64,000 nucleotides of DNA. Origin: Siderastrea radians (Eukaryota; Cnidaria; Anthozoa; Scleractinia; Rhizangiidae). Each line of letters opens with the position of its first letter. Positions within the stretch are counted from its first letter, which is position 1. This document shows positions 5,768-60,837 of this stretch, one piece after another. The stretch covers positions 37,357,036 through 37,421,035 of the forward strand of contig OZ024897.1 in the NCBI GenBank assembly GCA_964017195.1, read 5' to 3'. Under the pieces are notes generated by a model. That model saw only the letters and a program-made list of their open reading frames with translations, was not told where the DNA came from and ran no database searches. The position numbers were made by a program, and so were the translations under genes.

Positions 5768-5950
5768 AACATCTTAATTCACTTCCGTGAAATCTCCTCA
5801 CTTACTTCAACCGTTTATATTTTCGTCGTTTTTGTAAACAAAGTGAGTGGACGCTATCTTTCCGCCATTTTGACCGATGTTCGTTTCCAACTGTCCCCCG
5901 TTGCCTCGCAACCATGCCTAGAGCTTAGTTCTCCGCGCCACTATTAGTTG
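5768..5950 (-). promoter_or_regulatory. Probable 5' UTR/promoter region of the AGBL5-like gene
   Basis: This stretch lies directly upstream of the AGBL5-like start codon and contains several CpG-bearing segments, unlike the AT-rich surroundings. No TATA box is evident. The call rests on position only. Confidence 0.3.
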
Positions 5951-12838: not shown

Positions 12839-13051
12839 CTACAATTTTATCCAAAAATTGAGGAAATTGATCCATAACAAGGGTATGTGGAGGAAACTCA
12901 CCCAATTTGTGTTCTCCTCGCTCGTGATCAGATCGATGATGGCTCGCAGTAGAGCACTCTCCTTGTTACCTGCCCCAGTCCCCGCACTCAGCTTCATCTT
13001 CGGCTGAGCTATTTTCTGTTTCAGCAGTTTGTCGAGTTCAACTCGTAGCTC
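12839..13051 (-). CDS. DHX36: DHX36-like most 3' recognised exon, with read-through stop
   Basis: Encodes [16 protein letters not shown] and later [19 protein letters not shown], matching the DHX36 C-terminal segment. A strong donor (TGG|GTGAGT) follows at 12901. If it is not used, translation runs 20 further codons to a TAG at 12839-12841. Confidence 0.75.
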   Translation of the reverse strand, partial: ELRVELDKLLKQKIAQPKMKLSAGTGAGNKESALLRAIIDLITSEENTNWVSFLHIPLLWINFLNFWIKL

Positions 13052-34000: not shown

Positions 34001-37000
34001 AAAGACAACTGAGTATTCTTTTGAACTTTTTTTTTCCATCAACAAATTTGTTTTTGACCTTAGTTGTCTTTGCTTGTTTTGCTACAATGCGGGTCACCAT
34101 GCGATTTCGCACAAAAAACACGGGATTCAACACAGGGTTTTATCCAGTGTATGCCACTTCATATTGGTAACCCTGTGGTGCAGACGGGCGTATGGACAGA
34201 CGGTCACGTGACAATTACGTCACTACCAAAATTTCTTGGCTTGATAGGTTACCAAATTTGCTTAGCAATGGCGCTCCACTGACGCACTAGCGCACGAGCT
34301 CCGCTTAGCCTAATAGAAAAATATTAGGATGACTTTATCGGATTAGCTTGTCTGATTCAGCCTGCTATTTGCAAAAGGTGTTTACTAGACAGGAGTTTCT
34401 TAGATAAAAGGCATGTATTACAGAGGGGCATTTAACTCAAAATTCCTATTTCAGAGGGGCTTTTATTGGATACAAGGTATTTACTAGTGAGTGGGCATCT
34501 AAAAGATCATTTACGGTAAGCTTAATTCCTAGTACATAAATTTACTCACGGATCGGAAACAAGCCATCTAAGCAGGATTCCTGTTGTACAATACAGAATT
34601 GATCCTTGTTCCCGAGGTAGCTTGCTATATATAACAGAAATACAATGACAATGCTCAAGCCAATCTCATGCTTTTAAATTGACGATGATGAAGACAAGAA
34701 TGATAAAAAGAAAAATAATGTAAATAATGATTCTACAAAGTCATAAGTTAACAAAATTCATTGTCGTCATGATCACAGTAATTATTTTTAATGTTGGGTA
34801 GGACACAGAAAACAGAAATGCCTGAATACAAACTTAACATTTTTTTCTTGTCAAACTTCCACCTACAATTTAACAGGATTAGAATAACACATCTGCTTCA
34901 CAGGATAGTATTACTGAGCAGATTTGATTTAAATAATCACAATTAAGTTTTTATTGAAAATTGTTCATTGCATGGCAAAAGGTTTGAGAACTGCTAAGAG
35001 CCACAGAACTAAATTAAAAAAAACATAACTGTTTATTGAACACCATTGCAGTAAAAAAAACTGAATTACAGGGATAAAATACATGATTTAAAAGTTAACA
35101 CTACTATAATAGTACCATAGTAATATACACTATTAAATATAGGGTTGCTATTCAACTAATTTTTATGATTTACACATTGAGCCATTGACGAAAGTGTGAT
35201 AAATGAGCCGGAACGCTTCGTGCGGCACATGTTCCTGTTGTTACACTTATACAATGTTATGGCATTTAAACAAAAACTGAGAAAGCGGGTGCAGCTCATC
35301 TTAAACAGTCACATACACACCTTTCCAGTCTGATCTGAAAACCCACACTGCTGTTTCCACCACAGCTTTCATCCCGCTCAGCTGCAACTCTCTCTGCCAC
35401 CTGGTGTGTAAATGATGATGTCGTGATGCTAACATTGCTAAGGTGAATGACTGTGGACTTTATAAGAAGAGATTTAACTTACTGAAATTGCACTTATTCT
35501 CCTGGGTTGTGTACAGATGACTGGACATAATGATCCACCCCCTTGTTCAATAGCATCATCCAAGATGAACTGTGCAACCTATAAGAGATTATACTGAATT
35601 GAAGTTATATGCAATTTGGGTACTAAGTGAATTCAGAATCTTTTATTACTTATGGTGCACATGTATGCATGAGCAATCATGTATGATGCAATGCAATCAA
35701 GATAGGCAGACAAGACTGTCAATGTGAAAAATTAACTTAAGCCAATATACTTTATCCTGTAAGTAGAAAATTATCTTATCATGATTTGATTTGGCAAGTT
35801 CAACTAAGAAGCAGCTAGCATGGGCAATCGTTTTAAACTTGCAGGCTCAGAAGGAAATAATCCTTCCCTCTAATTAGTGGAGAGGTAAGGAAATAAGGAG
35901 CCTGGGAGAAAAGGGGGCAGGAGGTGTATGGGAGGTGGGAAAAGAGGGGACAGGAGAAAAGAGGGCAGGAGGTGTATGGGAGGTGGGAAAAGAGGGGACA
36001 GGAGAAAAGGGGGCAGGAGGTGTGTGGGAGGTGGGAAAAGAGGAGACAGGAGAAAAGGGGATAGGAGGTGTATGGGAGGTGGGAAAAAAGGGGACAGGAG
36101 AAAAGGGGATAGGAGGTGTATGGGAGGTGGGAAAAGAGGGGATGAGAGAAAAGGGGGCAGGAGGTGTAAGGGAGGTGGGAAAAGAGGGGACAGGAGAAAA
36201 GGGGGTGGGAGGTGTATGGGAGGTGGGAAAAGAGGGGACAGGAGAAAAGGGGGTGGGAGGTGTATGGGAGGTGGGAAAAGAGGGGACAGGAGAAAAGGGG
36301 GCAGGAGGTGTATGGGAGGTGGGAAAAGAAAGGACAGGAGAAAAGGGGATAGGAGGTGTATGGGAGGTGGGAAAAGAGGGGACAGAAGAAAAGGGGGCAG
36401 GAGGTGTATGGGAGGTGGGAAAAGAGGTGACAGGAGAAAAGGAGGTAAGAGGTGTAAGGAGATGAGGAAAGAGGGGACAGGAGAAAAGGGGGCAGGAGGT
36501 GTATGGGAGGTGGGAAAAGAGGGGACAGGAGAAAAGGGAGCAGGAGGTGTATGGGAGGTGGGAAAAGAGGGAACAGGAGAAAAGGGGGCAGGAGGTGTAT
36601 GGGAGGTGGGAAAAGAGGGAAAAGGAGAAAAGGGGGCAGGAGGTGTATGGGAGGTGGGAAAAGAGGGGACAGGAGAAAAGGGGGCAGGAGCTGTATGGGA
36701 GGTGGGAAAAGAGGGAACAGGAGAAAATAGGGCAGGAGGTGTATGGGAGGTGGGAAAAGAGGGGACAGGGGAAAAGAGGGCAGGATGGTGTATGGGAGGT
36801 GGGAAAAGAGGGTACAGGAGAAAAGGGGGTGGGAGGTGTAGAGGAGGTGGGAAAAGAGGGGACAGGAGAAAAGGGGGCAGGAGGTGTATGGGAGGTGGGA
36901 AAAGAGGGGACAGGAGAAAAGGGGGCAGGAGGTGTATGGGAGGTGGCAAAAGAGGGGACAGGAGAAAAGGGGTTGGGAGGTGTATAAAAGGTGGGAAAAG

Positions 37001-40000
37001 AGGGGACAGGAGAAAAGGGGGCAGGATGGTGTATGGGAGGTGGGAAAAGAGGGGACAGGAGAAAAGGGGGTGGGAGGTGTATAGGAGGTGGGAAAAGAGG
37101 GGACAGGAGAAAAGGGGGCAGGATGGTGTATGGGAGGGTGGGAAAAGAGGGGACAGGAGAAAAGGGGGCAGGATGGTGTATGGGAGGTGGGAAAAGAGGG
37201 GACAGGAGAAAAGGGGGCAGGAGGTGTATGGGAGGTGGGAAAAGAGGGGACAGGAGAAAAGGGGATAGGAGGTGTATCGGAGGTGGGAAAAGAGGGGACA
37301 GAAGAAAAGGGGGCAGGAGGTGTAAGGGAGGTGGGAAAAGAGGGGACAGGAGAAAAGGGGGCAGGAGGTGTATGGTAGGTGGGAAAAGAGGGGACAGAAG
37401 AAAAGGGGGCAGGAGGTGTAAGGGAGGTGGGAAAAGAGGGGACAGGAGAAAAGGGGGTGGGAGGTGTATTGGAGGTGGGAAAAGAGGGGACAGGAGAAAA
37501 GGGGGTAGGATGGTGTATGGGAGGTGGGAAAAGAGGGGACAGGAGAAAAGGGGATAGGAGGTGTATCGGAGGTGGGAAAAGAGCGGACAGAAGAAAAGGG
37601 GGCAGGAGGTGTGAGGGAGGTGGGAAAAGAGGGGACAGGAGAAAAGGGGGTGGGAGGTGTATAGGAGGTGGGAAAAGAGGGGACATGAGAAAAGGGGATA
37701 GGAGGTGTATGGGAGGTGGGAAAAGAGGGGACAGAAGAAAAGAGGGTGGGAGGTGTATAGGAGGTGGGAAAAGAGGGGACAGGAGAAATGGGGGCAGGAG
37801 GTGAATAGGAGGTGGGAAAAGAGGGGACAGGAGGAAAGGGGATAGGAGGTGTAAGGGAGGTGGGAAAAGAGGGGACAGGAGAAAAGGGGGCAGGAGGTGT
37901 AAGGGAGGTGGGAAAAGAGGGGACAGGACAAAAGGGGATAGAAGGTGTATGGGAGGTGGGAAAAGAGGGGACAGGAGAAAAGGGGATAGGGGGTGTAACG
38001 GAGGTGGGAAAAGAGGGGACAGGAGAAAAGGAGGTAGGAGGTGTATGGGAGGTGGGAAAAGAGGGGACAGGAGAAAAGGGGATAGGAGGTGTATGGGAGG
38101 TGGGAAAAGAGGGGATGAGAGAAAAGGGGGCAGGAGGTGTAAGGGAGGTGGGAAAAGAGGGGACAGGAGAAAAGGGGGTGGGAGGTGTATGGGAGGTGGG
38201 AAAAGAGGGGACAGGAGAAAAGGGGGCAGGATGGTGTATGGGAGGTGGGAAAAGAGGGGACAGGAGAAAAGGGGGCAGGAGGTGTATGGGAGGTGGGAAA
38301 AGAGGGGACAGGAGAAAAGGGGATAGGAGGTGTATAGGAGGTGGGAAAAGAGGGGACAGAAGAAAAGGGGGCAGGAGGTGTAAGGGAGGTGGGAAAAGAG
38401 GGGACAGGAGAAAAGGGGGCAGAAGGTGTATGGGAGGTGGGAAAAGAGGGGACAGCAGAAAAGGGGGCAGGAGGTGTAAGGGAGGTGGGAAAAGAGGGGA
38501 CAGGAGAAAAGGGGGTGGGAGGTGTATCGGAGGTGGGAAAAGAGGGGACAGGAGAAAAGGGGGTAGGATGGTGTATGGGAGGTGGGAAAAGAGGGAACAG
38601 GAGAAAATAGGGCAGGGGGTGTATGGGAGGTGGGAAAAGAGGGGACAGGAGAAAAGAGGGCAGGATGGTGTATGGGAGGTGGGAAAAGAGGGGATGAGAA
38701 AAAAAGGGGGCAGGAGGTGTAAGGGAGGTGGGAAAAGAGGGGACAGGAGAAAAGGGGGTGGGAGGTGTATGGGAGGTGGCAAAAGAGGGGACAGGAGAAA
38801 AGGGGGTGGGAGGTGTATAGGAGGTGGGAAAAGAGGGGACAGGAGAAAAGGGGGCAGGGTGGTGTATGGGAGGTGGGAAAAGAGGGGACAGGAGAAAAGG
38901 GGGTGGGAGGTGTATAGGAGGTGGGAAAAGAGGGGACAGGAGAAAAGGGGGCAGGATGGTGTATGGGAGGTGGGAAAAGAGGGGACAGGAGAAAAGGGGG
39001 TGGGAGGTGTATAGGAGGTGGGAAAAGAGGGGACAGGAGAAAAGGGGATAGGAGGTGTATGGGAGGTGGGAAAAGAGGGGACAGAAGAAAAGGGGGTGGG
39101 AGGTGTATAGGAGGTGGGAAAAGAGGGGACAGGAGAAATGGGGGCAGGAGGTGAATAGGAGGTGGGAAAAGAGGGGACAGGAGGAAAGGGGATAGGAGGT
39201 GTAAGGGAGGTGGGAAAAGAGGGGACAGGAGAAAAGGGGGCAGGAGGTGTAAGGGAGGTGGGAAAAGAGGGGACAGGAGAAAAGGGGATAGGAGGTGTAT
39301 GGGAGGTGGGAAAAGAGGGGACAGGAGAAAAGGAGATAGGGGGTGTAACGGAGGTGGGAAAAGAGGGGACAGGAAAAAAGGAGGTAGGACGTGTATGGGA
39401 GGTGGGAAAAGAGGGGACAGGAGAAAAGGGGATAGGAGGTGTATGGGAGGTGGGAAAAGAGGGGATGAGAGAAAAGGGGGCAGGAGGTGTAAGGGAGGTG
39501 GGAAAAGAGGGGACAGGAGAAAAGGGGGTGGGAGGTGTATGGGAGGTGGGAAAAGAGGGGACAGGAGAAAAGGGGGTGGGAGGTGTATGGGAGGTGGGAA
39601 AAGAGGGGACAGGAGAAAAGGGGGCAGGAGGTGTATGGGAGGTGGGAAAAGAACGGACAGGAGAAAAGGGGGCAGGAGGTGTATGGGAGGTGGGAAAAGA
39701 GGGAACAGGAGAAAAGGGGGCAGGAGGTGTATGGGAGGTGGGAAAAGAGGGAACAGGAGAAAAGGGGGCAGGAGGTGTATGGGAGGTGGGAAAAGAGGGG
39801 ACAGGAGAAAAGGGGGCAGGAGCTGTATGGGAGGTGGGAAAAGAGGGAACAGGAGAAAATAGGGCAGGAGGTGTATGGGAGGTGGGAAAAGAGGGGACAG
39901 GAGAAAAGGGGGCAGGAGCTGTATGGGAGGTGGGAAAAGAGGGGACAGGAGAAAAGAGGGCAGGATGGTGTATGGGAGGTGGGAAAAGAGGGGATGAGAG

Positions 40001-43000
40001 AAAAGGGGGCAGGAGGTGTAAGGGAGGTGGGAAAAGAGGGGACAGGAGAAAAGGGGATGGGAGGTGTATGGGAGGTGGCAAAAGAGGGGACAGGAGAAAA
40101 GGGGGTGGGAGGTGTATAGGAGGTGGGAAAAGAGGGGACAGGAGAAAAGGGGGCAAGATGGTGTATGGGAGATGGGAAAAGAGGGGACAGGAGAAAAGGG
40201 GGTGGGAGGTGTATAGGAGGTGGTAAAAGAGGGGACAGGAGAAAAGGGGGCAGGATGGTGTATGGGAGGGTGGGAAAAGAGGGGACAGGAGAAAAGGGGG
40301 CAGGATGGTGTATGGGAGGTGGGAAAAGAGGGGACAGGAGAAAAGGGGGCAGGAGGTGTATGGGAGGTGGAAAAAGAGGGGACAGGAGAAAAGGGGATAG
40401 GAGGTGTATCGGAGGTGGGAAAAGAGGGGACAGAAGAAAAGGGGGCAGGAGGTGTAAGGGAGGTGGGAAAAGAGGGGACAGGAGAAAAGAGGGGAGGAGG
40501 TGTAAGGAGATGAGGAAAGAGGGGACAGGAGAAAAGGGGGCAGGAGGTGTATGGGAGGTGGGAAAAGAGGGGACAGGAGAAAAGGGGGCAGGAGGTGTAT
40601 GGGAGGTGGGAAAAGAGGGGACAGGAGAAAAGGGGGTGGGAGGTGTATAGGAGGTCGGAAAAGAGGGGACAGGAGAAAAGGGGGTAGGATGGTGTATGGG
40701 AGGTGGGAAAAGAGGGGACAGGAGAAAAGGGGGCAGGAGGTGTATGGGAGGTGGGAAAAGAGGGGACAGGAGAAAAGGGGGCAGGAGGTGTATGGGAGGT
40801 GGGAAAAGAGGGGACAGGAGAAAAGGGGGCAGGATGGTGTATGGGAGGTGGGAAAAGAGGGGACAGGAGAAAAGGGGGCAGGAGGTGTATGGGAGGTGGG
40901 AAAAGAGGGGACAGGAGGAAAGGGGGCAGGAGGTGTATGGGAGGTGGCAAAAGAGGGGACAGGAGAAAAGGGGGTGGGAGGTGTATAGGAGGTGGGAAAA
41001 GAGGGGACAGGAGAAAAGGGGGCAGGATGGTGTATGGGAGGTGGGAAAAGAGGGGACAGGAGAAAAGGGGGCAGGAGGTGTATGGGAGGTGGCAAAAGAG
41101 GGGACAGGAGAAAAGGGGGTGGGAGGTGTATAGGAGGTGAGAAAAGAGGGGACAGGAGAAAAGGGGGCAGGATGGTGTATGGGAGGTGGGAAAAGAGGGG
41201 ACAGGAGAAAAGGGGGTGGGAGGTGTATAGGAGGTGGGAAAAGAGGGGACAGGAGAAAAGGGGGCAGGATGGTGTATGGGAGGTGGGAAAAGAGGGGACA
41301 GGAGAAAAGGGGGTGGGAGGTGTATAGGAGGTGGGAAAAGAGGGGACAGGAGAAAAGGGGGCAGGGTGGTGTATGGGAGAGTGGGAAAAGACGGGACAGG
41401 AGAAAAGGGGATAGGAGGTGTATGGGAGGTGGGAAAAGAGGGGACAGGAGAAAAGGGGGTGGGAGGTGTATCGGAGGTGGGAGAAGAGGGGACAGGAGAA
41501 AAGGGGGTGGGAGGTGTATCAGAGGTGGGAAAAGAGGGGACAGGAGAAAAGAGGGCAGGGGGTGAATGGGAGGTGGGAAAAGAGGGGACAGGAGAAAAGG
41601 GGGTGGGAGGTGTATGGGAGGTGGGAAAAGAGGGGACAGGAGAAAAGGGGGTGGGAGGTGTATGGGAGGTGGGAAAAGAGGGGACAGGAGAAAAGGGGGT
41701 AGGAGGTGTATGGGAGGTGGGAAAAGAGGGGACAGGAGAAAAGAGGGTAGGAGGTGTATAGGAGGTGGGAAAAGAGGGGACAGGAGAAAAGGGGGTGGGA
41801 GGTGTATCGGAGGTGGGAAAAGAGGGGACAGGAGAAAAGAGGGTAGGATGGTGTATGGGAGGTGGGAAAAGAGGGGACAGAAGAAAAGGGGGCAGGAGGT
41901 GTAAGGGAGGTGGGAAAAGAGGGGACAGGAGAAAAGGGGGTGGGAGGTGTATAGGAGGTGGGAAAAGAGGGGACAGGAGAAAAGGGGATAGGAGGTGTAT
42001 GGGAGGTGGGAAAAGAGGGGACAGAAGAAAAGAGGGTGGGAGGTGTATAGGAGGTGGGAAAAGAGGGGACAGGAGAAATGGGGGCAGGAGGTGAATAGGA
42101 GGTGGGAAAAGAGGGGACAGGAGGAAAGGGGATAGGAGGTGTAAGGGAAGTGGGAAAAGAGGGGACAGGAGAAAAGGGGGCAGGGGGTGTAAGGGAGGTG
42201 GGAAAAGAGGGGACAGGAGAAAAGGGGATAGGAGGTGTATGGGAGGTGGGAAAAGAGGGGACAGGAGAAAAGGAGATAGGGGGTGTAACGGAGGTGGGAA
42301 AAGAGGGGACAGGAGAAAAGGAGGTAGGAGGTGTATGGGAGGTGGAAAAAGAGGGGACAGGAGAAAAGGAGGTAGGAGGTGTATGGGAGGTGGGAAAAGA
42401 GGGGACAGGAGAAAAGGGGATAGGAGGTGTAAGGGAGGTGGGAAAAGAGGAGACAGGAGAAAAGGGGGTGGGAGGTGTATGGGAGGTGGGAAAAGAGGGG
42501 ACAGGAGAAAAGGGGGCAGGATGGTGTATGGGAGGTGGGAAAAGAGGGGACAGGAGAAAAGGGGGCAGGAGGTGTATGGGAGGTGGGAAAAGAGGGGACA
42601 GGAGAAAAGGGGATAGGAGGTGTATCGGAGGTGGGAAAAGAGGGGACAGAAGAAAAGGGGGCAGGAGGTGTAAGGGAGGTGGGAAAAGAGGGGACAGGAG
42701 AAAAGGGGGCAGGAGGTGTATGGGAGGTGGGAAAAGAGGGGACAGGAGAAAAGGGGGCAGGAGGTGTAAGGGAGGTGGGAAAAGAGGGGACAGGAGAAAA
42801 AGGGGTGGGAGGTGTATCGGAGGTGGGAAAAGAGGGGACAGGAGAAAAGGGGGTAGGATGGTGTATGGGAGGTGGGAAAAGAGGGGACAGGAGAAAAGGG
42901 GATAGGAGGTGTATCGGAGGTGGGAAAAGAGGGGACAGAAGAAAAGGGGGCAGGAGGTGTAAGGGAGGTGGGAAAAGAGGGGACAGGAGAAAAGGGGGTG

Positions 43001-46000
43001 GGAGGTGTATAGGAGGTGGGAAAAGAGGGGACAGGAGAAAAGGGGATAGGAGGTGTATGGGAAGTGGGAAAAGAGGGGACAGAAGAAAAGGGGGTGGGAG
43101 GTGTATAGGAGGTGGGAAAAGAGGGGACAGGAGAAATGGGGGCAGGAGGAGAATAGGAGGTGGGAAAAGAGGGGACAGGAGGAAAGGGGATAGGAGGTGT
43201 AAGGGAGGTGGGAAAAGAGGGGACAGGAGAAAAGGGGGCAGGAGGTGTAAGGGAGGTGGGAAAAGAGGGGACAGGAGAAAAGGGGATAGGAGCTGTATGG
43301 GAGGTGGGAAAAGAGGGGACAGGAGAAAAGGAGATAGGGGGTGTAACGGAGGTGGGAAAAGAGGGGACAGGAAAAAAGGAGGTAGGACGTGTATGGGAGG
43401 TGGGAAAAGAGGGGACAGGAGAAAAGGGGATAGGAGGTGTATGGGAGGTGGGAAAAGAGGGGATGAGAGAAAAGGGGGCAGGAGGTGTAAGGGAGGTGGG
43501 AAAAGAGGGGACAGGAGAAAAGGGGTGGGAGGTGTATGGGAGGTGGGAAAAGAGGGGACAGGAGAAAAGGGGGTGGGAGGTGTATGGCAGGTGGGAAAAG
43601 AGGGGACAGGAGAAAAGGGGGCAGGAGGTGTATGGGAGGTGGGAAAAGAGGGAACAGGAGAAAAGGGGGCAGGAGGTGTATGGGAGGTGGGAAAAGAGGG
43701 AACAGGAGAAAAGGGGGCAGGAGGTGTATGGGAGGTGGGAAAAGAGGGAACAGGAGAAAAGGGGGCAGGAGGTGTATGGGAGGTGGGAAAAGAGGGGACA
43801 GGAGAAAAGGGGGCAGGAGCTGTATGGGAGGTGGGAAAAGACGGAACAGGAGAAAAGGGGGCAGGAGGTGTATGGGAGGTGGGAAAAGAGGGGACAGGAG
43901 AAAAGAGGGCAGGATGGTGTATGGGAGGTGGGAAAAGAGGGTATGAGAGAAAAGGGGGCAGGAGGTGTAAGGGAGGTGGGAAAAGAGGGGACAGGAGAAA
44001 AGGGGGTGGGAGGTGTATGGGAGGTGGGAAAAGAGGGGACAGGAGAAAAGGGGTCAGGAGGTGTATGGGAGGTGGGAAAAGAGGGGACAGGAGAAAAGAG
44101 GATAGGAGGTGTATCGGAGGTGGGAAAAGAGGGGACAGAAGAAAAGGGGGCAGGAGGTGTAAGGGAGGTGGGAAAAGAGGGGACAGGAGAAAAGGGGGCA
44201 GGAGGTGTATGAGAGGTGGGAAAAGAGGGGACAGAAGAAAAGGGGGCAGGAGGTGTAAGGGAGGTGGGAAAAGAGGGGACAGGAGAAAAGGGGGTGGGAG
44301 GTGTATAGGAGGTGGGAAAAGAGGGGACAGGAGAAAAGGGGGTAGGATGGTGTATGGGAGGTGGGAAAAGAGGGGACAGGAGAAAAGGGGATAGGAGGTG
44401 TATCGGAGGTGGGAAAAGAGGGGACAGAAGAAAAGGGGGCAGGAGGTGTAAGGGAGGTGGGAAAAGAGGGGACAGGAGAAAAGGGGGTGGGAGGTGTATA
44501 GGAGGTGGGAAAAGAGGGGACAGGAGAAAAGGGGATAGGAGGTGTATGGGAGGTGGGAAAAGAGGGGACAGAAGTAAAGGGGGTGGGAGGTGTATAGGAG
44601 GTGGGAAAAGAGGGGACAGGAGAAATGGGGGCAGGAGGTGAATAGGAGGTGGGAAAAGAGGGGACAGGAGGAAAGGGGATAGGAGGTGTAAGGGAGGTGG
44701 GAAAAGAGGGGACAGGAGAAAAGGGGGCAGGAGGTGTAAGGGAGGTGGGAAAAGAGGGGACAGGAGAAAAGGGGGCAGGAGGTGTAAGGGAGGTGGGAAA
44801 AGAGGGGACAGGAGAAAAGGGGGCAGGAGGTGTAAGGGAGGTGGGAAAAGAGGGGACAGGAGAAAAGGGGGCAGGAGGTGTATGGGAGGTGGGAAAAGAG
44901 GGGACAGGAGAAAAGGGGGCAGGAGGTGTAAGGGAGGTGGGAAAAGAGGGGACAGGAGAAAAGGGGGTGGGAGGTGTATAGGAGGTGGGAAAAGAGGGGA
45001 CAGGAGAAAAGGGGGCAGGATGGTGTATGGGAGGGTGGGAAAAGAGGGGACAGGAGAAAAGGGGGTGGGAGGTGTATAGGAGGTGGGAAAAGAGGGGACA
45101 GGAGAAAAGGGGACAGGATGGTGTATGGGAGGTGGGAAAAGAGGGGACACGAGAAAAGGTGGCAGGATGGTGTATGGGAGGTGGGAAAAGAGGGGACAGG
45201 AGAAAAGGGGGTAGGAGGTGTATGGGTGGTGGGAAAAGAGGGGACAGGGGAAAAGGGGGTAGGAGGTGTATGGGAGGTGGGAAAAGAGGGGACAGGAGAA
45301 AAGGGGGTAGGAGGTGTATGGGAGGTGGGAAAAGAGGGGACAGGAGAAAAGGGGGTGGGAGGTGTATAGGAGGTGGGGAAAGAGGGGACAGGGGAAAAGG
45401 GGGCAGGAGGTGAATAGGAGGTGGGAAAAGAGGGGACAGGGGAAAAGGGGGGAGGAGGTGTATGGGAGGTGGGAAAAGAGGGGACAGGAGAAAAGGGGGT
45501 GGGAGGTGTATGGGAGGTGGGAAAAGAGGGGACAGGAGAAAAGGAGGTGGGGGGTGTATCGGAGGCGGGAAAAGAGGGGACAGGAGAAAAGGGGGCAGGA
45601 GGTGTATCGGAGGTGGGAAAAGAGGGGACAGGAGAAAAGGGGGTGGGAGGTGTATGGGAGGTGGGAAAAGAGGGGACAGGAGAAAAGGGGGCAGGGGGTG
45701 AATAGGAGGTGGGAAAAGAGGGTACAGGAGAAAAGGGGGTGGGAGGTGTATGGGAGGTGGGAAAAGAGGGGACAGGAGAAAAGGGGGTGGGAGGTGTATG
45801 GGAGGTGGGAAAAGAGGGGACAGGAGAAAAGGGGATAGGAGGTGTATGGGAGGTGGGAAAAGAGGGGACAGGAGAAAAGGGGGTGGGAGGTGTATCGGAG
45901 GTGGGAAAAGAGGGGACAGGAGAAAAGGGGGTGGGAGGTGTATCGGAGGTGGGAAAAGAGGAGACAGGAGAAAAGGGGGCAGGGGGTGAATGGGAGGTGG

Positions 46001-49000
46001 GAAAAGAGGGGACAGGAGAAAAGGGGGTGGGAGGTGTATGGGAGGTGGAAAAAGAGGGGACAGGAGAAAAGGGGGTGGGAGGTGTATGGGAGGTGGGAAA
46101 AGAGGGGACAGGAGAAAAGGGGGTAGGAGGTGTATGGGAGGTGGGAAAAGAGGGGACAGGAGAAAAGAGGGTAGGAGGTGTATAGGAGGTGGGAAAAGAG
46201 AGGACAGGAGAAAAGGGGGTCGGAGGTGTATGGGAGGTGGAAAAAGAGGGGACAGGAGAAAAGGGGGCAGGAGGTGTATAGGAGGTGGGAAAAGAGGGGA
46301 CAGGAGAAAAGGGGGTAGGAGGTGTATGGGAGGTGGGAAAAGAGGGGACAGGAGAAAAGGGGGTGGGAGGTGTATAGGAGGTGGGGAAAGAGGGGACAGG
46401 GGAAAAGGGGGCAGGAGGTGAATAGGAGGTGGGAAAAGAGGGGACAGGGGAAAAGGGGGAGGAGGTGTATGGGAGGTGGGAAAAGAGGGGACAGGAGAAA
46501 AGGGGGTGGGAGGTGTATGGGAGGTGGGAAAAGAGGGGACAGGAGAAAAGGAGGTGGGGGGTGTATCGGAGGCGGGAAAAGAGGGGACAGGAGAAAAGGG
46601 GGCAGGAGGTGTATCGGAGGTGGGAAAAGAGGGGACAGGAGAAAAGGGGGTGGGAGGTGTATGAGAGGTGGGAAAAGAGGGGACAGGAGAAAAGGGGGCA
46701 GGGGGTGAATAGGAGGTGGGAAAAGAGGGTACAGGAGAAAAGGGGGTGGGAGGTGTATGGGAGGTGGGAAAAGAGGGGACAGGAGAAAAGGGGGTGGGAG
46801 GTGTATGGGAGGTGGGAAAAGAGGGGACAGGAGAAAAGGGGATAGGAGGTGTATGGGAGGTGGGAAAAGAGGGGACAGGAGAAAAGGGGGTGGGAGGTGT
46901 ATCGGAGGTGGGAAAAGAGGGGACAGGAGAAAAGGGGGTGGGAGGTGTATCGGAGGTGGGAAAAGAGGAGACAGGAGAAAAGGGGGCAGGGGGTGAATGG
47001 GAGGTGGGAAAAGAGGGGACAGGAGAAAAGGGGGTGGGAGGTGTATGGGAGGTGGGAAAAGAGGGGACAGGAGAAAAGGGGGTGGGAGGTGTATGGGAGG
47101 TGGGAAAAGAGGGGACAGGAGAAAAGGGGGTAGGAGGTGTATGGGAGGTGGGAAAAGAGGGGACAGGAGAAAAGAGGGTAGGAGGTGTATAGGAGGTGGG
47201 AAAAGAGAGGACAGGAGAAAAGGGGGTGGGAGGTGTATGGGAGGTGGAAAAAGAGGGGACAGGAGAAAAGGGGGCAGGAGGTGTATGGGAGGTGGGAAAA
47301 GAGGGGACAGGAGAAAAAGGGGTGGGAGGTGTATGGGAGGTGGGAAAAGAGGGGACAGGAGAAAAGGGGGTAGGAGGTGTATGGGAGGTGGGAAAAGAGG
47401 GGACAGGAGAAAAGGGGGCAGGATGGTGTATGGGAGATGGGAAAAGAGGGGACAGGAGAAAAGGGGGTGGGAGGTGTATAGGAGGTGGTAAAAGAGGGGA
47501 CAGGAGAAAAGGGGGCAGGATGGTGTATGGGAGGGTGGGAAAAGAGGGGACAGGAGAAAAGGGGGCAGGATGGTGTATGGGAGGTGGGAAAAGAGGGGAC
47601 AGGAGAAAAGGGGGCAGGAGGTGTATGGGAGGTGGAAAAAGAGGGGACAGGAGAAAAGGGGATAGGAGGTGTATCGGAGGTGGAAAAAGAGGGGACAGAA
47701 GAAAAGGGGGCAGGAGGTGTAAGGGAGGTGGGAAAAGAGGGGACAGGAGAAAAGGGGGTAGGAGGTGTAAGGAGATGAGGAAAGAGGGGACAGGAGAAAA
47801 GGGGGCAGGAGGTGTATGGGAGGTGGGAAAAGAGGGGACAGGAGAAAAGGGGGCAGGAGGTGTATGGGAGGTGGGAAAAGAGGGGACAGGAGAAAAGGGG
47901 GTGGGAGGTGTATAGGAGGTCGGAAAAGAGGGGACAGGAGAAAAGGGGGCAGGATGGTGTATGGGAGGTGGGAAAAGAGGGGACAGGAGAAAAGGGGGCA
48001 GGAGGTGTATGGGAGGTGGGAAAAGAGGGGACAGGAGAAAAGGGGGCAGGAGGTGTATGGGAGGTGGGAAAAGAGGGGACAGGAGAAAAGGGGGCAGGAT
48101 GGTGTATGGGAGGTGAGAAAAGAGGGGACAGGAGAAAAGGGGGCAGGAGGTGTATGGGAGGTGGGAAAAGAGGGGACAGGAGGAAAGGGGGCAGGAGGTG
48201 TATGGGAGGTGGCAAAAGAGGGGACAGGAGAAAAGGGGGTGGGAGGTGTATAGGAGGTGGGAAAAGAGGGGACAGGAGAAAAGGGGGCAGGATGGTGTAT
48301 GGGAGGTGGGAAAAGAGGGGACAGGAGAAAAGGGGGCAGGAGGTGTATGGGAGGTGGCAAAAGAGGGGACAGGAGAAAAGGGGGTGGGAGGTGTATAGGA
48401 GGTGAGAAAAGAGGGGACAGGAGAAAAGGGGGCAGGATGGTGTATGGGAGGTGGGAAAAGAGGGGACAGGAGAAAAGGGGGTGGGAGGTGTATAGGAGGT
48501 GGGAAAAGAGGGGACAGGAGAAAAGGGGGCAGGATGGTGTATGGGAGGGTGGGAAAAGAGGGGACAGGAGAAAAGGGGGCAGGATGGTGTATGGGAGGTG
48601 GGAAAAGAGGGGACAGGAGAAAAGGGGGCAGGAGGTGTATGGGAGGTGGAAAAAGAGGGGACAGGAGAAAAGGGAATAGGAGGTGTATCGGAGGTGGGAA
48701 AAGAGGGGACAGAAGAAAAGGGGGCAGGAGGTGTAAGGGAGGTGGGAAAAGAGAAGACAGGAGAAAAGGGGGTAGGAGGTGTAAGGAGATGAGGAAAGAG
48801 GGGACAGGAGAAAAGGGGGCAGGAGGTGTATGGGAGGTGGGAAAAGAGGGGACAGGAGAAAAGGGGGCAGGAGGTGTATGGGAGGTGGGAAAAGAGGGGA
48901 CAGGAGAAAAGGGGGTGGGAGGTGTATAGGAGGTGGGAAAAGAGGGGACAGGAGAAAAGGGGGCAGGATGGTGTATGGGAGGTGGGAAAAGAGGGGACAG

Positions 49001-52000
49001 GAGAAAAGGGGGTGGGAGGTGTATAGGAGGTGGGAAAAGAGGGGACAGGAGAAAAGGGGGCAGGGTGGTGTATGGGAGGGTGGGAAAAGACGAGACAGGA
49101 GAAAAGGGGATAGGAGGTGTATGGGAGGTGGGAAAAGAGGGGACAGGAGAAAAGGGGGTGGGAGGTGTATCGGAGGTGGGAAAAGAGGGGACAGGAGAAA
49201 AGGGGGTGGGAGGTGTATCAGAGGTGGGAAAAGAGGGGACAGCAGAAAAGGGGGCAGGGGGTGAATGGGAGGTGGGAAAAGAGGGGACAGGAGAAAAGGG
49301 GGTGGGAGGTGTATGGGAGGTGGGAAAAGAGGGGACAGGAGAAAAGGGGGTGGGAGGTGTATGGGAGGTGGGAAAAGAGGGGACAGGAGAAAAGGGGGTA
49401 GGAGGTGTATGAGAGGTGGGAAAAGAGGGGACAGGAGAAAAGAGGGTAGGAGGTGTATAGGAGGTGGGAAAAGAGGGGACAGGAGAAAAGGGGGTGGGAG
49501 GTGTATCGGAGGTGGGAAAAGAGGGGACAGGAGAAAAGGGGGTAGGATGGTGTATGGGAGGTGGGAAAAGAGGGGACAGAAGAAAAGGGGGCAGGAGGTG
49601 TAAGGGAGGTGGGGAAAGAGGGGACAGGAGAAAAGGGGGTGGGAGGTGTATCGGAGGTGGGAAAAGAGGGGACAGGAGAAAAGGGGGTAGGATGGTGTAT
49701 GGGAGGTGGGAAAAGAGGGGACAGGAGAAAAGGGGATAGGAGGTGTATCGGAGGTGGGAAAAGAGGGAACAGAAGAAAAGGGGGCAGGAGGTGTAAGGGA
49801 GGTGGTAAAAGAGGGGACAGGAGAAAAGGGGGTGGGAGGTGTATAGGAGGTGGGAAAAGAGGGGACAGGAGAAAAGGGGATAGGAGGTGTATGGGAGGTG
49901 GGAAAAGAGGGGACAGAAGAAAAGAGGGTGGGAGGTGTATAGGAGGTGGGAAAAGAGGGGACAGGAGAAATGGGGGCAGGAGGTGAATAGGAGGTGGGAA
50001 AAGAGGGGACAGGAGGAAAGGGGATAGGAGGTGTAAGGGAGGTGGGAAAAGAGGGGACAGGAGAAAAGGGGGCAGGGGGTGTAAGGGAGGTGGGAAAAGA
50101 GGGGACAGGAGAAAAGGGGATAGGAGGTGTATGGGAGGTGGGAAAAGAGGGGACAGGAGAAAAGGAGAGAGGGGGTGTAACGGAGGTGGGAAAAGAGGGG
50201 ACAGGAGAAAAGGAGGTAGGAGGTGTATGGGAGGTGGGAAAAGAGGGGACAGGAGAAAAGGAGGTAGGAGGTGTATGGGAGGTGGGAAAAGAGGGGACAG
50301 GAGAAAAGGGGATAGGAGGTGTAAGGGAGGTGGGAAAAGAGGAGACAGGAGAAAAGGGGGTGGGAGGTGTATGGGAGGTGGGAAAAGAGGGGACAGGAGA
50401 AAAGGGGGCAGGATGGTGTATGGGAGGTGGGAAAAGAGGGGACAGGAGAAAAGGGGGCAGGAGGTGTATGGGAGGTGGGAAAAGAGGGGACAGGAGAAAA
50501 GGGGATAGGAGGTGTATCGGAGGTGGGAAAAGAGGGGACAGAAGAAAAGGGGGCAGGAGGTGTAAGGGAGGTGGGAAAAGAGGGGACAGGAGAAAAGGGG
50601 GCAGGAGGTGTATGGGAGGTGGGAAAAGAGGGGACAGGAGAAAAGGGGGCAGGAGGTGTAAGGGAGGTGGGAAAAGAGGGGACAGGAGAAAAGGGGGTGG
50701 GAGGTGTATCGGAGGTGGGAAAAGAGGGGACAGGAGAAAAGGGGGTAGGATGGTGTATGGGAGGTGGGAAAAGAGGGGACAGGAGAAAAGGGGATAGGAG
50801 GTGTATCGGAGGTGGGAAAAGAGGGGACAGAAGAAAATGGGGCAGGAGGTGTAAGGGAGGTGGGAAAAGAGGGGACAGGAGAAAAGGGGGTGGGAGGTGT
50901 ATAGGAGGTGGGAAAAGAGGGGACAGGAGAAAAGGGGATAGGAGGTGTATGGGAAGTGGGAAAAGAGGGGACAGAAGAAAAGGGGGTGGGAGGTGTATAG
51001 GAGGTGGGAAAAGAGGGGACAGGAGAAATGGGGGCAGGAGGAGAATAGGAGGTGGGAAAAGAGGGGACAGGAGGAAAGAGGATAGGAGGTGTAAGGGAGG
51101 TGGGAAAAGAGGGGACAGGAGAAAAGGGGGCAGGAGGTGTAAGGAGGTGGGAAAAGAGGGGACAGGAGAAAAGGGGATAGGAGGTGTATGGGAGGTGGGA
51201 AAAGAGGGGACAGGAGAAAAGGAGATAGGGGGTGTAACGGAGGTGGGAAAAGAGGGGACAGGAAAAAAGGAGGTAGGACGTGTATGGGAGGTGGGAAAAG
51301 AGGGGACAGGAGAAAAGGGGATAGGAGGTGTATGGGAGGTGGGAAAAGAGGGGATGAGAGAAAAGGGGGCAGGAGGTGTAAGGGAGGTGGGAAAAGAGGG
51401 GACAGGAGAAAAGGGGGTGGGAGGTGTATGGGAGGTGGGAAAAGAGGGGACAGGAGAAAAAGGGGTGGGAGGTGTATGGGAGGTGGGAAAACAGGGGACA
51501 GGAGAAAAGGGGGCAGGAGGTGTATGGGAGGTGGGAAAAGAGGGAACAGGAGAAAAGGGGGCAGGAGGTGTATGGGAGGTAGGAAAAGAGGGAACAGGAG
51601 AAAAGGGGGCAGGAGGTGTATGGGAGGTGGGAAAAGAGGGAACAGGAGAAAAGGGGGCAGGAGGTGTATGGGAGGTGGGAAAAGAGGGGACAGGAGAAAA
51701 GGGGGCAGGAGCTGTATGGGAGGTGGGAAAAGACGGAACAGGAGAAAAGGGGGCAGGAGGTGTATGGGAGGTGGGAAAAGAGGGGACAGGAGAAAAGAGG
51801 GCAGGATGGTGTATGGGAGGTGGGAAAAGAGGGGATGAGAGAAAAGGGGGCAGGAGGTGTAAGGGAGGTGGGAAAAGAGGGGACAGGAGAAAAGGGGGTG
51901 GGAGGTGTATGGGAGGTGGGAAAAGAGGGGACAGGAGAAAAGGGGGCAGGAGGTGTATGGGAGGTGGGAAAAGAGGGGACAGGAGAAAAGAGGATAGGAG

Positions 52001-55000
52001 GTGTATCGGAGGTGGGAAAAGAGGGGACAGAAGAAAAGGGGGCAGGAGGTGTAAGGGAGGTGGGAAAAGAGGGGACAGGAGAAAAGGGGGCAGGAGGTGT
52101 ATGGGAGGTGGGAAAAGAGGGGACAGAAGAAAAGGGGGCAGGAGGTGTAAGGGAGGTGGGAAAAGAGGGGACAGGAGAAAAGGGGGTGGGAGGTGTATAG
52201 GAGGTGGGAAAAGAGGGGACAGGAGAAAAGGGGGTAGGATGGTGTATGGGAGGTGGGAAAAGAGGGGACAGGAGAAAAGGGGATAGGAGGTGTATCGGAG
52301 GTGGGAAAAGAGGGGACAGAAGAAAAGGGGGCAGGAGGTGTAAGGGAGGTGGGAAAAGAGGGGACAGGAGAAAAGGGGGTGGGAGGTGTATAGGAGGTGG
52401 GAAAAGAGGGGACAGGAGAAAAGGGGATAGGAGGTGTATGGGAGGTGGGAAAAGAGGGGACAGAAGTAAAGGGGGTGGGAGGTGTATAGGAGGTGGGAAA
52501 AGAGGGGACAGGAGAAATGGGGGCAGGAGGTGAATAGGAGGTGGGAAAAGAGGGGACAGGAGGAAAGGGGATAGGAGGTGTAAGGGAGGTGGGAAAAGAG
52601 GGGACAGGAGAAAAGGGGGCAGGAGGTGTAACGGAGGTGGGAAAAGAGGGGACAGGAGAAAAGGGGGCAGGAGGTGTAACGGAGGTGGGAAAAGAGGGGA
52701 CAGGAGAAAAGGGGGCAGGAGGTGTAACGGAGGTGGGAAAAGAGGGGACAGGAGAAAAGGGGGCAGGACGTGTATGGGAGGTGGGAAAAGAGGGGACAGG
52801 AGAAAAGGGGGCAGGAGGTGTAAGGGAGGTGGGAAAAGAGGGGACAGGAGAAAAGGGGGTGGGAGGTGTATAGGAGGTGGGAAAAGAGGGGACAGGAGAA
52901 AAGGGGGCAGGATGGTGTATGCGAGGGTGGGAAAAGAGGGGACAGGAGAAAAGGGGGTGGGAGGTGTATAGGAGGTGGGAAAAGAGGGGACAGGAGAAAA
53001 GGGGACAGGATGGTGTATGGGAGGTGGGAAAAGAGGGGACACGAGAAAAGGTGCCAGGATGGTGTATGGGAGGTGGGAAAAGAGGGGACAGGAGAAAAGG
53101 GGGTAGGAGGTGTATGGGTGGTGGGAAAAGAGGGGACAGGGGAAAAGAGGGTAGGAGGTGTATCGGAGGTGGGAAAAGAGGGGACAGGAGAAAAGGGGGT
53201 AGGAGGTGTATGGGAGGTGGGAAAAGAGGGGACAGGAGAAAAGGGGGTGGGAGGTGTATAGGAGGTGGGGAAAGAGGGGACAGGGGAAAAGGGGTCAGGA
53301 GGTGAATAGGAGGTGGGAAAAGAGGGGACAGGAGAAAAGGGGGGAGGAGGTGTATGGGAGGTGGGAAAAGAGGGGAGAGGAGAAAAGGGGGTAGGAGGTG
53401 TATAGGTGGTGGGAAAAGAGGGGACAGGGGAAAAGGGGGTAGGAGGTGTATGGGAGGTGGGAAAAGAGGGGACAGGAGAAAAGGGGGTAGGAGGTGTATG
53501 GGAGGTGGGAAAAGAGAGGACAGGAGAAAAGGGGGTGGGAGGTGTATAGGAGGTGGGGAAAGAGGGGACAGGGGAAAAGGGGGCAGGAGGTGAATAGGAG
53601 GTGGGAAAAGAGGGGACAGGGGAACAGGGGGGAGGAGGTGTATGGGAGGTGGGAAAAGAGGGGACAGGAGAAAAGGGGGTGGGAGGTGTATGGGAGGTGG
53701 GAAAAGAGGGGACAGGAGAAAAGGGGGTAGGATGGTGTATGGGAGGTGGGAAAAGAGGGGACAGGAGAAAAGGGGGTAGGATGGTGTATGGGAGGTGGGA
53801 AAAGAGGGGACAGGAGAAAAGGGGATAGGAGGTGTATCGGAGGTGGGAAAAGAGGGGACAGAAGAAAAGGGGGCAGGAGGTGTAAGGGAGGTGGGAAAAG
53901 AGGGGACAGGAGAAAAGGGGGTGGGAGGTGTATAGGAGGTGGGAAAAGAGGGGACAGGAGAAAAGGGGATAGGAGGTGTATGGGAGGTGGGAAAAGAGGG
54001 GACAGAAGTAAAGGGGGTGGGAGGTGTATAGGAGGTGGGAAAAGAGGGGACAGGAGAAATGGGGGCAGGAGGTGAATAGGAGGTGGGAAAAGAGGGGACA
54101 GGAGGAAAGGGGATAGGAGGTGTAAGGGAGGTGGGAAAAGAGGGGACAGGAGAAAAGGGGGCAGGAGGTGTAACGGAGGTGGGAAAAGAGGGGACAGGAG
54201 AAAAGGGGGCAGGAGGTGTAACGGAGGTGGGAAAAGAGGGGACAGGAGAAAAGGGGGCAGGAGGTGTAACGGAGGTGGGAAAAGAGGGGCCAGGAGAAAA
54301 GGGGGCAGGACGTGTATGGGAGGTGGGAAAAGAGGGGACAGGAGAAAAGGGGGCAGGAGGTGTAAGGGAGGTGGGAAAAGAGGGGACAGGAGAAAAGGGG
54401 GTGGGAGGTGTATAGGAGGTGGGAAAAGAGGGGACAGGAGAAAAGGGGGCAGGATGGTGTATGCGAGGGTGGGAAAAGAGGGGACAGGAGAAAAGGGGGT
54501 GGGAGGTGTATAGGAGGTGGGAAAAGAGGGGACAGGAGAAAAGGGGACAGGATGGTGTATGGGAGGTGGGAAAAGAGGGGACACGAGAAAAGGTGCCAGG
54601 ATGGTGTATGGGAGGTGGGAAAAGAGGGGACAGGAGAAAAGGGGGTAGGAGGTGTATGGGTGGTGGGAAAAGAGGGGACAGGGGAAAAGAGGGTAGGAGG
54701 TGTATCGGAGGTGGGAAAAGAGGGGACAGGAGAAAAGGGGGTAGGAGGTGTATGGGAGGTGGGAAAAGAGGGGACAGGAGAAAAGGGGGTGGGAGGTGTA
54801 TAGGAGGTGGGGAAAGAGGGGACAGGGGAAAAGGGGTCAGGAGGTGAATAGGAGGTGGGAAAAGAGGGGACAGGAGAAAAGGGGGGAGGAGGTGTATGGG
54901 AGGTGGGAAAAGAGGGGAGAGGAGAAAAGGGGGTAGGAGGTGTATAGGTGGTGGGAAAAGAGGGGACAGGGGAAAAGGGGGTAGGAGGTGTATGGGAGGT

Positions 55001-58000
55001 GGGAAAAGAGGGGACAGGAGAAAAGGGGGTAGGAGGTGTATGGGAGGTGGGAAAAGAGAGGACAGGAGAAAAGGGGGTGGGAGGTGTATAGGAGGTGGGG
55101 AAAGAGGGGACAGGGGAAAAGGGGGCAGGAGGTGAATAGGAGGTGGGAAAAGAGGGGACAGGGGAAAAGGGGGGAGGAGGTGTATGGGAGGTGGGAAAAG
55201 AGGGGACAGGAGAAAAGGGGGTGGGAGGTGTATGGGAGGTGGGAAAAGAGGGGACAGGAGAAAAGGAGGTGGGGGGTGTATCGGAGGCTGGAAAAGAGGG
55301 GACAGGAGAAAAGAGGGCAGGAGGTGTATCGGAGGTGGGAAAAGAGGGGACAGGAGAAAAGGGGGTGGGAGGTGTATGGGAGGTGGGAAAAGAGGGGACA
55401 GGAGAAAAGGGGGCAGGGGGTGAATAGGAGGTGGGAAAAGAGGGTACAGGAGAAAAGGGGGTGGGAGGTGTATGGGAGGTGGGAAAAGAGGGGACAGGAG
55501 AAAAGGGGGTGAGAGGTGTATGGGAGGTGGGAAAAGAGGGGACAGGAGAAAAGGGGATAGGAGGTGTATAGGAAGTGGGAAAAGAGGGGACAGGAGAAAA
55601 GGGGGTGGGAGGTGTATCGGAGGTGGGAAAAGAGGGGACAGGAGAAAAGGGGACAGGATGGTGTATGGGAGGTGGGAAAAGAGGGGACACGAGAAAAGGT
55701 GCCAGGATGGTGTATGGGAGGTGGGAAAAGAGGGGACAGGAGAAAAGGGGGTAGGAGGTGTATGGGTGGTGGGAAAAGAGGGGACAGGGGAAAAGAGGGT
55801 AGGAGGTGTATCGGAGGTGGGAAAAGAGGGGACAGGAGAAAAGGGGGTAGGAGGTGTATAGGAGGTGGGAATAGAGGGGACAGGAGAAAAGGGGACAGGA
55901 TGGTGTATGGGAGGTGGGAAAAGAGGGGACACGAGAAAAGGTGCCAGGATGGTGTATGGGAGGTGGGAAAAGAGGGGACAGGAGAAAAGGGGGTAGGAGG
56001 TGTATGGGTGGTGGGAAAAGAGGGGACAGGGGAAAAGAGGGTAGGAGGTGTATCGGAGGTGGGAAAAGAGGGGACAGGAGAAAAGGGGGTAGGAGGTGTA
56101 TGGGAGGTGGGAAAAGAGGGGACAGGAGAAAAGGGGGTGGGAGGTGTATAGGAGGTGGGGAAAGAGGGGACAGGGGAAAAGGGGTCAGGAGGTGAATAGG
56201 AGGTGGGAAAAGAGGGGACAGGAGAAAAGGGGGGAGGAGGTGTATGGGAGGTGGGAAAAGAGGGGACAGGAGAAAAGGGGGTAGGAGGTGTATAGGTGGT
56301 GGGAAAAGAGGGGACAGGGGAAAAGGGGGTAGGAGGTGTATGGGAGGTGGGAAAAGAGGGGACAGGAGAAAAGGGGGTAGGAGGTGTATGGGAGGTGGGA
56401 AAAGAGAGGACAGGAGAAAAGGGGGTGGGAGGTGTATAGGAGGTGGGGAAAGAGGGGACAGGGGAAAAGGGGGCAGGAGGTGAATAGGAGGTGGGAAAAG
56501 AGGGGACAGGGGAAAAGGGGGGAGGAGGTGTATGGGAGGTGGGAAAAGAGGGGACAGGAGAAAAGGGGGTGGGAGGTGTATGGGAGGTGGGAAAAGAGGG
56601 GACAGGAGAAAAGGAGGTGGGGGGTGTATCGGAGGCGGGAAAAGAGGGGACAGGAGAAAAGAGGGCAGGAGGTGTATCGGAGGTGGGAAAAGAGGGGACA
56701 GGAGAAAAGGGGGTGGGAGGTGTATGGGAGGTGGGAAAAGAGGGGACAGGAGAAAAGGGGGCAGGGGGTGAATAGGAGGTGGGAAAAGAGGGTACAGGAG
56801 AAAAGGGGGTGGGAGGTGTATGGGAGGTGGGAAAAGAGGGGACAGGAGAAAAGGGGGTGGGAGGTGTATGGGAGGTGGGAAAAGAGGGGACAGGAGAAAA
56901 GGGGATAGGAGGTGTATAGGAAGTGGGAAAAGAGGGGACAGGAGAAAAGGGGGTGGGAGGTGTATCGGAGGTGGGAAAAGAGGGGACAGGAGAAAAGGGG
57001 GTGGGAGGTGTATCGGAGGTGGGAAAAGAGGAGACAGGAGAAAAGGGGGCAGGGGGTGAATGGGAGGTAGGAAAAGAGGGGACAGGAGAAAAGGCGGTGG
57101 GAGGTGTATGGGAGATGGGAAAAGAGGGGACAGGAGAAAAGGGGGTGGGAGGTGTATGGGAGGTGGGAAAAGAGGGGACAGGAGAAAAGGGGGTAGGAGG
57201 TGTATAGGAGGTGGGAAAAGAGGGGACAGGAGAAAAGAGGGTAGGAGGTGTATAGGAGGTGGGAAAAGAGAGGACAGGAGAAAAGGGGGTGGGAGGTGTA
57301 TGGGAGGTGGAAAAAGAGGGGACAGGAGAAAAGGGGGCAGGAGGTGTATTGGAGGTGGGAAAAGAGGGGACAGGAGAAAAAGGGGTGGGAGGTGTATAGG
57401 AGGTGGGAAAAGAGGGGACAGGAGAAAAGGGGGTAGGAGGTGTATGGGAGGTGGGAAAAGAGGGGACAGGAGAAAAGGAGGTGGGAGGTGTATGGGAGGT
57501 GGGAAAAGAGGGGACAGGAGAAAAGGGGGCAGGAGGTGTATAGGAGGTGGGAAAAGAGGGGACAGGAGAAAAGGGGGTAGGAGGTGTATGGGAGGTGGGA
57601 AAAGAGGGGTTGGGAAGCAGGATTCCTGAGGTGGAGAAAAGCAGAAGAAATAAAGGGAAATTATGCAACATCGACAATATTTTGCAATCGAAAAAGCACA
57701 AAGAGGTAGGAGCCAGAAAAGGTAAAGTGGGAGCAGGATTCAAGGGTACAGGAAGCAAGACATTAAGCCACCCAAACCCCCACTAATTAACTAGTATGGT
57801 AAGGCAAGAAAATGAAGGAAAAATACACCTTGCTAGTCAGCAAAGGTATTTTTGGCGTTCTTAAATTAACAGTGATTTCACTAGACACTTGACGTAGTTT
57901 TAACTTGCATGTGAGAGCAAAGTTTATAACCCTCTATTGTGCAGTCCTTGGGAATATTGATTTACGCCGAGCAACATTTTCTCCGTGTATAACTTCATTT

Positions 58001-60686: not shown

Positions 60687-60837
60687 GTTCCTTCCGCGAA
60701 TTCGCAAAGGCGTATTACAACTAGTACGTCACAGGGTCCAGAGGAGTTAAATTTGTACGCAAGAATTATCCTTCGTACAACTTACCATATAAAATACATA
60801 GCCAAGTCATTTGATCAATACATATGCCCAATGCAAC

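Follow-up and report, generated by a model that had tools for sequence, protein, structure and literature searches.

In a 64,000-nucleotide stretch of the stony coral Siderastrea radians (contig OZ024897.1, positions 37,357,036 to 37,421,035 of the forward strand; hereafter the window) a single intron of a DHX36 gene is almost entirely occupied by a 48-bp minisatellite. With a probability of roughly three in four, we regard it as a non-coding, lineage-specific intronic minisatellite that grew by block duplication in an ordinary coral DHX36 and that lies there by chance. The initial annotation had described an array of ~21.7 kb with ~450 copies of the 48-bp unit, and had suggested that the gene, which encodes a quadruplex helicase, could be regulated by its own product through quadruplexes in the array, or that the association may equally be coincidence; the dimensions held, and coincidence is the better reading.

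Tandem Repeats Finder recovered 450.9 copies at period 48 (91% matches, score 35681, as against 378 for the runner-up tandem array within the window), and wrap-around alignment to the cyclic consensus resolved them into individual units (386 of 48 bp, 47 of 49 bp, 10 of 50 bp, 7 of 47 bp, and a last one cut at 45 bp), of which 146 distinct sequences exist. Head-to-tail arrangement and constant unit length, within the range of ~10-100 bp, identify the array as a minisatellite. Its plus strand is 87% purines and its GC skew is ~0.88. An open stretch of 6,783 codons on the minus strand (35833-56184) raised the possibility of a coding repeat, which was rejected: the three minus-strand frames together contain only 6 stops across the array and 64 of the 451 units are 47, 49 or 50 bp long, so that no reading frame is kept. 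A protein search with the repeat translations gave no match at E <= 0.001 among 7988 candidates scored (a weak negative), an exact 38-mer of the repeat had none in viral and prokaryote contigs (equally weak, coral DNA not being expected there), and Rfam returned 0 matches.

The host gene lies on the minus strand, where the helicase motifs Walker A (58359-58382), TQPRR (35498), DEIH (32295), SAT (30838), FLPG (22027) and QRRGRAGR (19323) were located, and 24 exons (58427 to 12902) join at splice sites into a single stop-free open frame of 794 codons (794 amino acids). Its Pfam domains above cut-offs are DEAD, Helicase_C, HA2_N, HA2_C and OB_NTP_bind; the best-matching solved structures are DHX36 entries (939-955 bits), followed by CG9323 (632) and DHX29 (617), and the closest named proteins are the coral DHX36-like proteins of Oculina patagonica (90% identity) and Acropora palmata (88%), over an aligned 73%. 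The helicase core with HA2 and OB domains, closest to DHX36, agrees with the earlier assignment as DHX36-like; the predicted product is DHX36, and the host an otherwise ordinary coral DHX36 gene. The array sits, as had been proposed, in the intron that separates the Walker A exon from the motif Ia exon (Table 1), filling 95.3% of it and leaving 326 bp to the acceptor and 743 bp to the donor. With the gene on the minus strand and the G-rich strand being the plus strand, the latter is the template, again as claimed.

A 524-residue protein derived from a 2,532-base JGI contig agrees with the gene model at 508 of 509 positions, a stretch that takes in the last part of the exon preceding E8 and continues through E22. 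Considering that these exons span more than 9 kb of genome, the contig must come from spliced RNA, and the 3' half of DHX36 is expressed and spliced. Among the best 120 of 3335 matches, none was a near-identical transcript across the E1-E2 junction; the array would be transcribed as a 21.7 kb C/U-rich RNA and removed with its intron. Residues 1-245 of the Oculina protein found no match in the window at E <= 1 (array masked), and the N-terminal exons may lie beyond position 64000. The Oculina and Acropora proteins contain, by eye, a stretch matching the N-terminal RHAU-specific motif, which contacts quadruplexes. A weak donor was entertained as a peculiarity of the array intron (5/9 against the donor consensus) and dropped, as two others of the 22 donors tie with it. 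The intron after E19 has an apparent GC donor (AAG|GCAAGT) at 14986 (minus strand), and a partial second exon copy with an in-frame stop lies just downstream of E19 (14826-14912, minus strand). Three smaller arrays, with 5-, 16- and 127-bp units, occupy other introns (20479-20558, 22573-22818 and 23559-23870, respectively), and tandem repeats are thus not rare in the introns of this gene.

The internal structure of the array records its growth by block duplication. Extended runs of units are repeated at numerous offsets, diverging by 0.1-1.9% (40 listed of 49 runs), and of the 45 ten-unit blocks 28 are matched by a near-copy in another part of the array (<=5 differences in ~480 bp), as against a median best of 25 differences (lowest 14) in one shuffle of the unit order. 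Repeated duplication of multi-unit blocks would have proceeded via unequal exchange or break-induced copying, and the array length probably varies between individuals, as the internal duplications of this one sequence suggest. Part of the length might instead reflect alleles or repeats joined in error during assembly, which we hold to be rather improbable. The runs at the 164-unit offset (0.65-0.8% different) would fit such an error, and this divergence could be allelic in an outbred coral; near-copies occur, however, at many offsets (21, 28, 32, 151, 160, 164, 209, 230 units and more), and divergence is graded across them, as under stepwise growth. Two alleles joined by the assembler might account for the pair at 164 units, but not for the range of offsets. 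With its readable duplication history, the array offers a natural case for minisatellite growth and for the tolerance of transcription towards a 21.7-kb intronic array.

Table 1. Coordinates of the minisatellite, its duplicated blocks and the surrounding DHX36 exons (positions within the window).
Feature	Position	Strand	Remarks
48-bp minisatellite, 451 units	35905..57609	+ G-rich; - (sense for the gene) C/T-rich	Tandem Repeats Finder, wrap-around alignment
Youngest-looking block duplication	52222..55256		31 matched units, 32-unit (1,542-bp) offset, 2 differences
Zone containing the longest (39 units) and second-longest (35 units) matched runs	41880..53378		164-unit (7,892-bp) offset, 0.65-0.8% different
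Exon E1, Walker A, first DHX36 exon found in the window	58353..58427	-	
Array-bearing intron E1-E2, 22,774 bp	35579..58352	-	
Exon E2 (VAQFILDD..., motif Ia TQPRR)	35483..35578	-	
Exons E3-E22 of DHX36	12902..35400	-	last coding exon unplaced
Two additional DHX36 exons	24277-24095 and 23276-23174	-	

The comparison across related species proposed in the initial annotation was made with one relative, Desmophyllum pertusum, which seems to be without an array of this size. Its protein (P0121, named dhx29 partial at the source) starts 175 residues ahead of the Walker A exon, continues through motif V and is encoded on a contig of 12,189 bp, whereas E1-E10 alone take up 38.5 kb in S. radians. As this contig is too short to hold it, D. 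pertusum probably carries no array of such length, judging from the sequence at hand. A published assembly of the species (as Lophelia pertusa), to which the 12,189-bp contig may belong, is reported to be built from PacBio long reads (PMC10022433).

The array had been called quadruplex-prone, with four G runs of at least 3 bases per unit. The consensus does have all four, although only 244 of the 451 units retain them, and the label applies as far as composition goes: on the plus strand the mean G4Hunter score is 1.43, and 86% of the 25-nt windows score >=1.2 (67% in 50 dinucleotide shuffles of the whole array). Beyond composition the picture is mixed. Relative to the same shuffles, the G strand exceeds expectation in long-loop motifs (loops to 12 nt; 310 vs 266 +/- 7), two-G-tract motifs (836 vs 580 +/- 10) and G runs >=3 (1737 vs 1599 +/- 16), and falls below it in windows scoring >=1.5 (39% vs 45%) and in strict motifs (three-tetrad, loops 1-7 nt; 34 vs 167 +/- 8). 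By maximum loop, the three-tetrad motifs number 0 at <=4 nt, 15 at <=5, 34 at <=7 and 310 at <=12. Because the array units derive from one another by copying, the fairer null is given by single 48-bp units after shuffling (2000 for strict and long-loop motifs): 54% of them lack a strict motif, for 72% each unit contains a long-loop motif, and the consensus is equalled or surpassed by 20% in two-G motifs, 10% in windows >=1.2 and 56% in G runs. The unit is unremarkable in quadruplex potential for its composition, and in genome scans G-richness with four consensus G tracts would not by itself separate such a repeat from others of the same composition. The folding energy of two units (quadruplexes allowed, RNA parameters) was -21.8, against -27.7 +/- 10.7 in 100 shuffles, and is not informative.

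The G tracts show no sign of preservation among units. A minimum spanning tree built from 142 aligned unit types gave a mean of 5.8 changes for sites within G tracts >=3 (15 sites) against 2.45 for the remaining G sites (n = 11; Mann-Whitney P = 0.0009), a contrast that (the sites being non-independent and runs possibly mutating faster) speaks only to the lack of preservation. The human minisatellites CEB1 and CEB25 resemble the coral array in their G-rich units (39 and 52 bp), CEB25 being intronic as well (PMC3486850). Unlike in the coral array, where quadruplexes are predicted and all-short-loop motifs are missing, their folding has been demonstrated, and the instability of CEB1 is reported to need short-loop quadruplexes: in yeast it is favoured by loops <=3 nt and drops to low or background levels with a longer loop (PMC5491262). 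This comparison is not decisive, as a loops-<=3 pattern also misses CEB1 (non-canonical folds) and the strict pattern misses CEB25, described as a folding minisatellite (PMC3486850).

The proposed autoregulation supposes that quadruplexes on the template strand stall RNA polymerase II within the intron and that DHX36 unwinds them, so that its own level sets its expression. The identity of the host gene, the G-rich template with its high G4Hunter coverage, and the many two-G and long-loop motifs are what one would expect under it. Nonetheless we found it unsupported and give it a very low probability, for the strict motifs are fewer than in array shuffles, the unit is ordinary among shuffled units, its G tracts are not preserved and the array is seemingly lacking in D. 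pertusum. Moreover, the sense (RNA) strand of the array contains no quadruplex motif, even when G2 tracts are admitted, and DHX36 is thus left without a predicted RNA quadruplex target in this intron; this strand placement makes a regulatory loop via sense-RNA quadruplexes very unlikely, while one via DNA quadruplexes is possible but unsupported. Also against the proposal, quadruplex motifs near splice sites in human genes are reported to favour the non-template strand, the template being enriched too (PMC9065059).

Of the structural features tested, the one that sets the unit apart most is a mirror repeat. Where one unit meets the next, the consensus contains the homopurine mirror repeat GGGAAAAGAGG-GGACA-GGAGAAAAGGG, whose arms are 11 bp long and whose spacer is 5 nt; this is the form of an H-DNA (triplex) motif (arms >=10 bp, short spacer). 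Arms of at least 10 bp turn up in only 20 of 3000 shuffled units, and arms of 11 bp in 2; the exact 10-bp form occurs 286 times over 450 junctions, in comparison with 2 such sites in the remaining 42.3 kb of the window. H-DNA arises at homopurine mirror repeats, can stall polymerase and is resolved by DHX9 and DDX3X, according to PMC12887540. An alternative would be that the mirror repeat folds during transcription or replication, slows the polymerase and drives copy-number change, as it would in any gene. The rarity of such arms among shuffled units and elsewhere in the window, together with the known stalling, argues for it; on the other hand, the feature was picked post hoc among several, the arms are short and of mixed G/A composition, a mismatch is present at 165 of the 450 junctions, and in no pair is a change in one arm matched in the other. 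On balance we deem this alternative unlikely. In the chance reading, the purine-rich template strand is predicted to be capable of forming the triplex-type mirror repeat and long-loop or two-tetrad quadruplexes, which may favour changes in copy number and retard transcription a little.

On the sense strand YUCUYY occurs 887 times (618 +/- 17 in 30 shuffles; 83 per 21.7 kb elsewhere in the window), while CUCUCU (7 vs 69) and CCCC (1218 vs 2058) are both scarcer than in shuffles. The excised intron could, in principle, act as a sponge, each molecule taking up numerous copies of PTB-like or poly(C)-binding proteins. The YUCUYY excess is in keeping with such a role, and a precedent is reported in PNCTR, similarly a long pyrimidine-rich repeat RNA dense in this motif (2,178 YUCUYY/YYUCUY sites), which sequesters PTBP1 (PMC6224606). 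PNCTR, however, is a noncoding RNA with demonstrated PTBP1 binding, as described there, whereas its coral counterpart is an intron with predicted sites; the scarcity of CUCUCU and CCCC runs against the idea, which further assumes both a stable intron RNA and the specificity of coral PTB, and we judge it extremely improbable. Along the 21.7 kb of this strand the dinucleotide AG occurs 7 times and a single site resembles an acceptor; few cryptic acceptors are therefore available and the choice of acceptor should be little disturbed.

We reason that the array is most likely nearly neutral and that its residence in a quadruplex-helicase gene is most likely chance. Several points weigh against this view: the absence in D. 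pertusum stands on one small contig and is thin evidence; a mirror repeat of this kind is rare at such a composition (20/3000 shuffled units at 10-bp arms) and two-G and long-loop motifs lie above array shuffles, so that structure-based effects may well play some part; and chance is not quantified, as the odds would require the genome-wide number of such arrays. One could also envisage a length-variable brake in cis, in which hundreds of template triplexes or quadruplexes slow the polymerase and helicases (DHX36 included) relieve it, so that array length and DHX36 level would be coupled and would both differ among individuals. If array length did affect a quadruplex helicase, a structure-forming repeat would be acting on its own resolver; the evidence makes this unlikely, and we accord the brake hardly any credence.

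The polypurine-polypyrimidine tract of PKD1, reportedly intronic with its pyrimidines on the sense strand, is said to share with the coral array the purine/pyrimidine mirror repeats within a gene. Long intronic minisatellites that affect expression are already on record: the variable number tandem repeat (VNTR) of human ABCA7, like the coral array an intronic minisatellite with hundreds of units, is reported to range from 12 to 427 or more units (PMC8239992), its length being linked to lower expression and exon 19 skipping (PMC5954066). It differs in its ~25-bp unit, in the gene concerned and in having an effect shown in people, the coral array being the longer in bp. Literature searches, judged by the titles among the matches listed, yielded nothing on a tandem array inside DHX36, and those on coral tandem repeats and scleractinian intron minisatellites (judged likewise) nothing on a DHX36 array.

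Upstream of E1 and on the same strand as DHX36, an uninterrupted open reading frame of 406 codons (59508-60728, minus strand) without a Pfam match may sit within an upstream DHX36 intron; by eye it perhaps encodes a gustatory-receptor-like membrane protein, and a piece of similar sequence occurs at about 63262-63345 (plus strand). At the other end of the window lie pieces of a cytosolic carboxypeptidase-like gene (2979-5773, minus strand), in which Peptidase_M14 covers 2979-4121 and the N-terminal domain belonging to it 5327-5773.

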